A stretch of DNA of 33,514 bases, from the IMG/VR virus record IMGVR_UViG_3300030101_003117, positions 1 to 33,514 of that record; one strand, 5' to 3'. A program made the position numbers and the translations under genes. The notes under the pieces were generated by a model. It had not been told where the DNA came from. It searched no databases and was given only the letters and a program-made list of their open reading frames with translations. The DNA is from a virus. Below, one piece after another: positions 2,923 through 30,420 of this stretch; the first letter of the stretch is position 1; each line of letters opens with the position of its first letter.

Positions 2923-3351
2923 ATGGCTACTAAAAGAGAACAAATATTAACTGCTATTAAAACAAAGTTAACAGGAACTACAGGTGTCGGTACTCGAATA
3001 TATAGATCTAGACCAGAAGCTTTTAGCAGATCTGAGACTCCAGCAATAATTATTGAGCCAATGAGTGATACTCCACAAGATACAAATAGTTTTAATAATC
3101 GTATTAGATGGGAATTTAGATTTCGTGTAAGCGTAATTGTTAGAGGAGCTATTCCAGATAACGTAGCAGACGCTTCAGTAGAAAGTTTACATGCAAAGAT
3201 TACAGATGATCCGACATTAAATGGATTAACAATAGATATACGTCCATCAACTACTTCTTTTGAAATATTAGAAGCTGATCAACCTGCTGGTGTAACATCA
3301 TGCGAGTTTGAAGCAGAATATCAAACTCTTTATAACACCTTAAGTACATAA
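2923..3351 (+). CDS. Tail terminator protein (gpU-like)
   Basis: A 142-residue protein with the usual length and pattern of siphovirus tail terminators. The N-terminal helix (REQILTAIKTKL) is followed by RIYRSRPEAFSRSETPAIII, a strand-loop in which the ETPAI motif is typical, and then several beta strands ending in SCEFEAEYQTLYNTL. These proteins form a hexameric ring capping the tail tube and joining it to the head. Its place between the joining protein and the tail tube gene supports the call. A 96-base AT-rich gap without a gene follows. Confidence 0.72.
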   Translation: MATKREQILTAIKTKLTGTTGVGTRIYRSRPEAFSRSETPAIIIEPMSDTPQDTNSFNNRIRWEFRFRVSVIVRGAIPDNVADASVESLHAKITDDPTLNGLTIDIRPSTTSFEILEADQPAGVTSCEFEAEYQTLYNTLST

Positions 3352-26419: not shown

Positions 26420-26524
26420 ATGATTGTTACCGAAAAAATTAAAGCAGCAAAAAAAAGAATAGCAGAATTAGAATTGCTTATAGATATTTGGACACAAAAA
26501 AAGACCCCTATGAAGAGGTCTTAG
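26420..26524 (+). CDS. Possible small helical peptide
   Basis: A 34-codon plus-strand frame with an AAAGGA site about 12 bases before its ATG. It encodes an amphipathic Lys-rich helix (VTEKIKAAKKRIAELELLIDIW) and ends inside a hairpin that is the minus-strand terminator. The helix pattern and ribosome site support it; the short length and terminator overlap argue against. Confidence 0.4.
   Translation: MIVTEKIKAAKKRIAELELLIDIWTQKKTPMKRS
26494..26522 (-). terminator. Second minus-strand terminator
   Basis: Reading minus: a 9-bp stem with one mismatch (AAGACCTCT/AGGGGTCTT), 4-base loop TCAT, then TTTTT. It lies 80 bases beyond the first terminator of the upstream minus gene. A plus-strand terminator is unlikely because the plus side lacks a T tract. 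Confidence 0.7.
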
Positions 26525-26601
26525 TTCTTGCAAGTATCTAGTGTGTCCATGTTTCCACTAGTTACATACAAGCACTCCTACACACGCGGATACATTAGCA
26601 C
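26523..26601 (-). ncRNA. Possible small RNA between two terminators
   Basis: No gene fits here. On the minus strand it holds a perfect CTAGTG/CACTAG inverted repeat and the palindrome CTTGCAAG, and ends at the second terminator. A small transcript or a readthrough tail is possible; no promoter is convincing. Confidence 0.25.
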
Positions 26602-27148: not shown

Positions 27149-27188
27149 TTACCCTTATTATAAAAACCCCTAATAAACAATAGGAATT

Positions 27189-27218
27189 TAGTGTGCCACT
27201 AATTTAACTGGCACACTA
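27189..27218. repeat. Perfect 10-bp inverted repeat
   Basis: TAGTGTGCCA and TGGCACACTA flank a 10-base AT-rich loop (CTAATTTAAC). The plus side has eight T, but 13 bases after the stem, so it is not a standard terminator. Could be an operator, replication element or RNA hairpin. Confidence 0.6.
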
Positions 27219-27259
27219 GTAATGACTAAAGTTTTTTTTCTAGATTTGTATTAATATTT

Positions 27260-27388
27260 AAGTAATCGGGAAGCCTGATGATTCTTAGTTGTTCCAAGGG
27301 CTAAGAATATGAAAGCTATAGCACCCTTGACATGGGGTAAGGCAGGGCGGTTCACAAGGTTGGCTGACTCATCTCCCGATTATTTTTT
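27260..27388 (+). ncRNA. Putative structured non-coding RNA with H-type pseudoknot and terminator
   Basis: No gene fits this stretch. Closing stem: TAATCGGGA (27263-27271) with TCCCGATTA (27374-27382), extendable by G-U and A-U pairs, followed by six T. Inside, ATTCTTAG (27281-27288) pairs with CTAAGAAT (27301-27308). The loop's CAAGGG (27295-27300) is complementary to CCCTTG (27324-27329). This gives an H-type pseudoknot with 8- and 6-bp stems and loops of 6, 0 and 15 nt. AGCC (27272-27275) can pair with GGCT (27362-27365); GATGA (27277-27281) can instead pair with TCATC (27369-27373), a mutually exclusive choice. I match it to no known RNA family. Strand is inferred from the T tract and from the plus gene at 27400. 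Confidence 0.6.
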
Positions 27389-27399
27389 CAACTATCATT

Positions 27400-27561
27400 A
27401 TGCTTAAAATTATTAGACCAATAGTTTTTGCTTTTCTTCGTGGCAATGCAATAAAAAGGCTCGCAATAGATATACTGCGAGCTATGGTTAAAAAAACCGA
27501 TAATACAGTTGATGATAGCCTTGTAGATATTATGGAACGTAACCTTTTTCCTAATAGCTAG
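27400..27561 (+). CDS. Small basic cyanophage-type protein
   Basis: A 53-residue frame starting 12 bases after the structured RNA. It has an N-terminal hydrophobic helix (LKIIRPIVFAFLRGNAIKRLAIDILRAMV) and then KKTDNTVDDSLVDIMERNLF. From memory, similar short proteins occur in marine cyanophages. The helix might associate with the membrane. A 7-bp perfect inverted repeat lies in its coding sequence. Missed by length-limited gene calls. Confidence 0.6.
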   Translation: MLKIIRPIVFAFLRGNAIKRLAIDILRAMVKKTDNTVDDSLVDIMERNLFPNS

Positions 27562-29586: not shown

Positions 29587-30420
29587 TTATTCAGATAATT
29601 TAGGATATATCTTTAACATGTATGTAATATCAGAAGGAGGAGCAACAAATCTTGTTTTCTTTATATCGTCAATCCAAAAATTAAATAACCTTATAAAAGC
29701 ATTTAGTAAATACCTTTGAGAAGAAGAACCTCTTTGCCTAAAACCTTTTGACATCATTTGATGTCTAAATGACAATATCGGATTATCTATTTCTAAATTT
29801 GCTCCTTCTGAAATTTGTTTCCAAAATTTTTCGCAAATTTTTTCATCATAATTATTATCTTTCATTAACTTATACATAGCAATCGCTACACTTAAAGTAA
29901 AAAAATGAAATTTTTTATGACATACATTAATTTCTTTAACTATGAAATCCCATATTTCTTTGTTTTTAATATAGTTATCAAAAATTTCTAAATGAGTAGG
30001 GTTTATAACATTACTCCAGTTACCTTTTGGATACCTTTGGTATAGTATATAAACTTTAATTCCAGCAGCCACTCTTGAAGGTTGTGTACAGCCCTCTATA
30101 AATAAACTATCAGCAGCAGATCTTGCTGTTCCTGTATCAATACAATTAAATATTTTTGCACTAATATTCCTAGTAACCATCATTGGTAATGTTTTACCAG
30201 TTTTTACAATTGCTTCAAGCCTATGCTGACCATCTAATAAATAACCATTATCATCAAAAGCAATACCTTGATGAGTAACTACCCATTGTCCATTATCTAT
30301 TGCTGTTATAAGTCTATTTAAATTTGCTGGTTTAATTGACCTATTATTTATATTTTTAGTAGTAAGAACATCAATAGCAAAATCAGGAGTAATGTTTTCA
30401 ATTTGCGTAGAAATTTGCAT
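29587..30420 (-). CDS. ParB/Srx-like DGQHR domain protein
   Basis: A 277-residue protein. Residues ~15-105 resemble the ParB/sulfiredoxin-like N-terminal fold, with GYLLDGQHRLEAIV (DGQHR at 63-67) and an additional DTGTARSAADSL motif at 95-106 seen in phage proteins of this type. The rest is helical and basic. ParB-like proteins bind nucleotide and/or DNA, and some cleave DNA; here catalysis cannot be judged. Located between the SSB-like and hypothetical genes in the early block. A 99-base gap upstream has only a weak 7-bp hairpin. Confidence 0.7.
   Translation of the reverse strand: MQISTQIENITPDFAIDVLTTKNINNRSIKPANLNRLITAIDNGQWVVTHQGIAFDDNGYLLDGQHRLEAIVKTGKTLPMMVTRNISAKIFNCIDTGTARSAADSLFIEGCTQPSRVAAGIKVYILYQRYPKGNWSNVINPTHLEIFDNYIKNKEIWDFIVKEINVCHKKFHFFTLSVAIAMYKLMKDNNYDEKICEKFWKQISEGANLEIDNPILSFRHQMMSKGFRQRGSSSQRYLLNAFIRLFNFWIDDIKKTRFVAPPSDITYMLKIYPKLSE

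Follow-up and report, generated by a model that had tools for sequence, protein, structure and literature searches.

A structured RNA of about 100-130 nt encoded by marine picocyanobacteria and siphoviruses

In this study, we analysed the window, a 33,514-nt stretch of viral DNA (IMG/VR record IMGVR_UViG_3300030101_003117, positions 1 to 33,514), and found that it encodes one member of a class of RNAs of about 100-130 nt that is present in marine picocyanobacteria and siphoviruses. The RNA is structured, conserved and selected on the + strand. A covariance model (R1), trained on 17 relatives and on no window-type sequence, places the whole conserved RNA at 27259-27386 (+), with 69.6 bits and an E-value of 2.3e-15. 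The RNA is new at the level of the class, since no described family matches it (the ncRNA Yfr103 was compared by description only); "categorically new" thus refers to the RNA class and not to a demonstrated new mechanism. In its fold, helix P1 encloses two arms, and one of these is itself branched. The parts of the RNA and its immediate surroundings in the window are as follows.

27240-27262 (+): possible promoter region, weak, with the A/T-rich box TATTAAT just upstream of P1
27263-27271 (+): P1, 5' strand, TAATCGGGA, read in the sequence
27274-27276 (+): P1b, 5' strand, CCU, partner of 27345-27347
27281-27288 (+): variable hairpin P2, 5' strand, ATTCTTAG
27301-27308 (+): P2, 3' strand, CTAAGAAT
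27310-27314 (+): conserved linker UGAAA, near-invariant columns
27315-27317 (+): P3a, 5' strand, GCU, near-invariant columns, partner of 27341-27343
from after the P3a 5' strand, within 27310-27323 (+): start of the internal loop (AUA..), near-invariant columns
27324-27337 (+): P3b hairpin, CCCU..GGGG, both-sided changes at all four pairs
27341-27343 (+): P3a, 3' strand, GGC; the middle pair covaries from C-G to U-A
27345-27347 (+): P1b, 3' strand, RGG (GGG in the window)
27348-27366 (+): P4 hairpin, CGGUU..GGCUG, the strongest covariation of the molecule
27367-27373 (+): 3' linker, in the consensus with a conserved AUC end before P1
27374-27382 (+): P1, 3' strand, TCCCGATTA
27383-27388 (+): U tract (TTTTTT), window type only, missing behind P1 in most relatives
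27400-27561 (+): small gene phrog_2738, function not assigned, outside the RNA family (its relatives occur without the RNA)

The original prediction described 27260-27388 as a structured RNA in a stretch without a coding frame, and this is borne out. No gene was called across the stretch, and the fold of the + strand is more stable than that of shuffled sequence (-41.8 kcal/mol, z -2.45), whereas folding of the - strand is no better than chance (z -0.89). Both predicted stems, the perfect 9-bp closing stem TAATCGGGA/TCCCGATTA (P1) and the 8-bp stem ATTCTTAG/CTAAGAAT (P2), are present and covary across relatives. The comparison of homologues that had been proposed as a check revealed compensatory changes in P1, P2, P3a, P3b and P4 of the R1 class. 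In a MAFFT alignment of 17 diverse relatives, evaluated with a hand-set structure, 17 pairs changed on both sides, compared to a mean of 10.9 in shuffles, none of which (0/500) reached 17; the covariation score was 0.448 versus 0.206 for shuffled alignments and about 0.1 or less for slid partners. When 109 sequences from phages and hosts were used, the score was 0.399, against 0.168 for shuffles and at most 0.104 for slid helices; this alignment was fitted to the model and its counts lean towards it, a bias from which the 17-row MAFFT alignment is free. All five modelled pairs of P2 show both-sided changes among the 109 sequences. The three pairs of P1b (CG, CG, UG/UA) are retained in nearly all of them with slight variation, and covariation is therefore no test of this helix. 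A structure-blind mutual-information test gave the highest ranks to pairs of the model itself and added one, column 149 with column 172, which is the first C-G pair of P4; with it, P4 becomes longer and P1b is reduced to CCU/RGG. A version of P1b with four pairs, GCCU/RGGC, was corrected because its final C is the partner of the G after P4. RNAalifold alone gives a different inner pairing. Paired columns hold 226 G-U against 65 A-C combinations, to which one more column adds 95 U-G, and this excess indicates that the + strand is selected as RNA.

Other elements of the predicted fold fared differently. The 6-nt complementarity between CAAGGG (27295-27300) and CCCTTG (27324-27329) exists, but the H-type pseudoknot built on it found no support. 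In-place shuffles of the loop match over 6 bp or more in 41% of cases (P 0.41), any loop-to-downstream match of at least 6 bp is present in only 6 of the 109 family members, and the structure-blind test gives no signal for the pseudoknot. CCCTTG sits in the 5' strand and loop of P3b, where its CCC pairs with GGG instead. The alternative helices AGCC/GGCT and GATGA/TCATC, read as a switch, are not retained; P4 and the 3' linker of the relatives differ. Six T do follow the closing stem at 27383-27388, but as a feature they are limited to the nearest relatives.

The element has the sequence signature CGGGAAGCCUGA..UGAAAGC..AUCUCCCG, and the near-invariant single-stranded linkers of the class are UGA, UGAAA, AUAnAAnA, AAA and AUC. 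That its family is absent from the catalogue, as predicted, was confirmed with the 4227 models of Rfam 15: none matched at the site in the window, even at E 5, or in any relative or host copy that was scanned. No paper naming the element was found in the open-access literature searched. At another site in the window, 26521-26587 (-), Rfam Cyano-1 (RF01701) matches with 42.9 bits (cut-off 41), directly followed by a terminator-like hairpin (26522-26501); judged by this match, the site is a phage-borne copy of the cyanobacterial sRNA Cyano-1. The window resembles a hammerhead ribozyme in having CUGAUGA before P2 and GAAA after it. This candidate was rejected: in relatives, P2 starts inside the would-be CUGANGA, the text of which varies (CUGACG, CUGAUA..), and the third stem is not followed by a U-H cleavage site, A being the letter after P3a.

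In window-type phages the small gene begins 17 nt after P1, and P1 of the window is followed by six U. The RNA might accordingly be regarded as a cis-acting riboswitch or attenuator of this gene, with P1 and the U tract as terminator, but we consider this barely credible. Among relatives of the small gene, L002-L005, L023 and L026 have the RNA, whereas L006-L022 retain the gene with no RNA upstream, and the R1 search found no match in the searched members of this latter group; a leader linked to the small gene was ruled out on these grounds. Across the family there is no consistent downstream gene; the genes differ, and several groups face the 3' end of a convergent gene. Furthermore, the U tract is not general.

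Scanning viral contigs with a conserved-core pattern yielded many more copies in several distinct gene neighbourhoods. In the main search, R1 matched at every one of the 82 listed loci, a figure that is not an unbiased hit rate, as the loci were mostly preselected by the short core pattern and two contigs were entered twice; for such loci the informative part is the match of the remaining structure. R1 also matches three cultured Prochlorococcus siphophages, MED4-117, MED4-184 and P-HS2, the records of which have no RNA feature annotated there; the matches in MED4-117 and MED4-184 overlap, at their start, the end of a small gene annotated as hypothetical. BLAST with single members against phage records was too weak to find these phages, except for the L064-type query. 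Phage copies lie beside a RusA/O-like replication region, within a few kb before a terminase gene or in the setting of the window, and those near the replication region or terminase share the strand of these late or replication genes. Copies of the MED4 (e.g. MED4-184), L042, L064 and L130 types directly follow a stop codon, those of the L066/L103 type lie 53-54 nt behind one, and L047-type copies are not directly behind a gene. Window-type copies have no preceding gene and a promoter-like box instead; the A/T-rich box upstream of P1 is retained in window-type relatives, while a consensus promoter scan did not report the TATTAAT region upstream of P1 in the window. Nearby, an inverted repeat, AGTGTGCCACTAATTTAACTGGCACACTA (about 27187-27216), matches intergenic DNA of the cyanomyophages S-SSM7, S-RIM8 and metaG-MbCM1. 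Elsewhere, the window carries a cyanophage outer-membrane-like beta barrel (PF24653, 22909-23259, +) and a weak, below cut-off DndB-like match (29587-30420, -).

The RNA is not confined to phages. R1 matches were detected in 21 of 386 cyanobacterial genomes, all of 1.7-2.9 Mb, and in 56 of 400 genomes of one picocyanobacterial family. A genome holds up to at least 8-9 copies; in the survey of 400 genomes eight candidates were scored per genome, so that 8 copies is a lower bound there. Matching genomes include those we take to be Synechococcus CC9605 (the genome of L289/L290), WH7803 and CC9902 and Prochlorococcus MIT9313. No match was obtained in 384 Pseudomonadota genomes, and of the 24 candidates from a pattern scan of bacterial genome contigs R1 confirmed none. 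Copies often cluster, for example at 2377-2396 kb in G568, at 1059-1062 kb in G605 and at 1568-1572 kb in the L289/L290 genome.

In the hosts the position of the RNA is characteristic, and most copies are placed as a 3'-UTR element would be. For 59 of 72 host copies a same-strand ORF ends within 60 nt upstream, compared to 19.5 expected at random positions, in a crude control that counts every ORF of at least 40 aa; the usual distance from the stop codon is 0-20 nt, and 12 copies lie at distance 0. The upstream genes show no sequence relationship to one another (RTX repeats, TM2, small secreted proteins), yet several have a common 5' UTR motif, CGGAGAUGGUGUGUnCA, found at 19 of the 72 copies by a strict pattern. 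Behind many host copies lies a terminator with the pattern CCCCGUCAGCAAUGGCGGGG-U(n). In the L289/L290 genome the leader motif occurs at three places as a pair exactly 119 nt apart, as if two start sites preceded the same genes. In L196, L197, L199 and others, the stretch behind P1 is often CCUCACACACACC, which could pair with GGUGUGUG of the leader as a contact between 5' and 3' UTR. The roles proposed in the original prediction were all phage roles. The numerous copies that follow stop codons on host chromosomes do not fit a pure leader, an origin or a packaging RNA; a free sRNA is a possible role.

It is tempting to speculate that the RNA is a module of mRNA 3' ends that is read by a host factor, a reading to which we give about an even chance and which fits the near-invariant linkers and the carriage behind many unrelated ORFs. 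The short helices would present these linkers, the most likely binding site of the factor (a protein or a ligand), which might stabilise, process or otherwise control the transcript. In window-type phages the RNA is probably transcribed alone or as the first part of a transcript and would engage the same host factor, either helping the phage's own transcript or occupying the factor. Several observations count against such a 3'-end module: an upstream gene is missing from some host copies (L194:2991 and L284, for example), window-type and L047-type phage copies lie away from gene ends, and a strict search detected a terminator behind only 24 of the 72 host copies.

Copies without an adjacent upstream gene, in hosts as in window-type phages, speak for an autonomous RNA. 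The element might act in trans as an sRNA, either autonomous or derived from a 3' UTR, with the mRNA around it serving only as carrier; we rank this second, as possible but rather unlikely. It would agree with the TATAAT or TATTAAT-like boxes that L126, L077 and window-type copies carry roughly 10 nt ahead of P1, with the sequence TTGACA..TATATA before the L210 and L212 copies, and with P1 joining both ends of the molecule as in free-standing RNAs. However, most host copies are tight behind the stop codons of unrelated genes, and a conserved long single-stranded, antisense-like seed is absent. The L210 and L212 copies (2965-3082 and 3003-3120, both on the - strand) are diverged, have a P3 region nearly identical to that of window-type phages and sit in a candidate defence locus with PADLOC PDC-M33A and PDC-M33C and a C5 methylase.

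A structured element that recurs, in clusters and directly 3' of ORFs unrelated to each other, is also reminiscent of attC sites. Host genes with a common leader and trailer might be swapped in islands, the element marking the boundary of the recombined cassettes; the multi-copy clusters of G568, G605 and the L289/L290 genome and the orphan elements would suit this. We regard it as highly unlikely: the G-U-rich covariation on one strand indicates selection at the RNA level, the element is a branched junction unlike the attC hairpin, and a leader and promoter-like sequence of their own are present in at least some units. The attC boxes GTTRRRY/RYYYAAC were not seen by eye in the consensus, and no associated integrase was noticed in an unsystematic inspection.

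Yfr103 is an abundant ncRNA of 290-328 nt of marine Synechococcus and Prochlorococcus, with seven paralogs in Synechococcus CC9605 and with WH7803, CC9902 and MIT9313 among its carriers, according to the published description (Hou et al., 2016; PMC5069720). By this description, the element resembles it in copy number, host group, conserved structure and perhaps promoter type, and differs in its length of about 100-130 nt and its usual position behind the stop codons of coding genes. The element might be part of Yfr103: the genome taken to be that of CC9605 has nine matches at E 0.05 or better, the genomes taken to be those of the carriers WH7803, CC9902 and MIT9313 also contain it, and some leaders are preceded by a palindrome, in agreement with the promoter position reported for Yfr103. 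In the L289/L290 genome, however, it lies within transcripts of differing build and length, of which only one (1532561 to about 1532845) is near the reported size, and we lean towards its not being part of Yfr103. If the two were the same, the novelty would shrink to a new position and a phage distribution of a known RNA.

Taking up the 3'-end module again, we tentatively propose that many unrelated genes share this RNA as a common 3' end, often together with a common 5' leader, that it is recognised by a putative host factor, and that phages acquired it to use or block this factor. Few bacterial examples are known to us of a folded 3'-UTR element whose core stays constant behind a large number of unrelated genes. 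An RNA common to viruses and their hosts points to an undescribed post-transcriptional system that the viruses also use. With the covariance model and the structure at hand, the cultured pair P-HS2 and Prochlorococcus MED4 makes the RNA testable, and its carriers include the most abundant phototrophs of the ocean.
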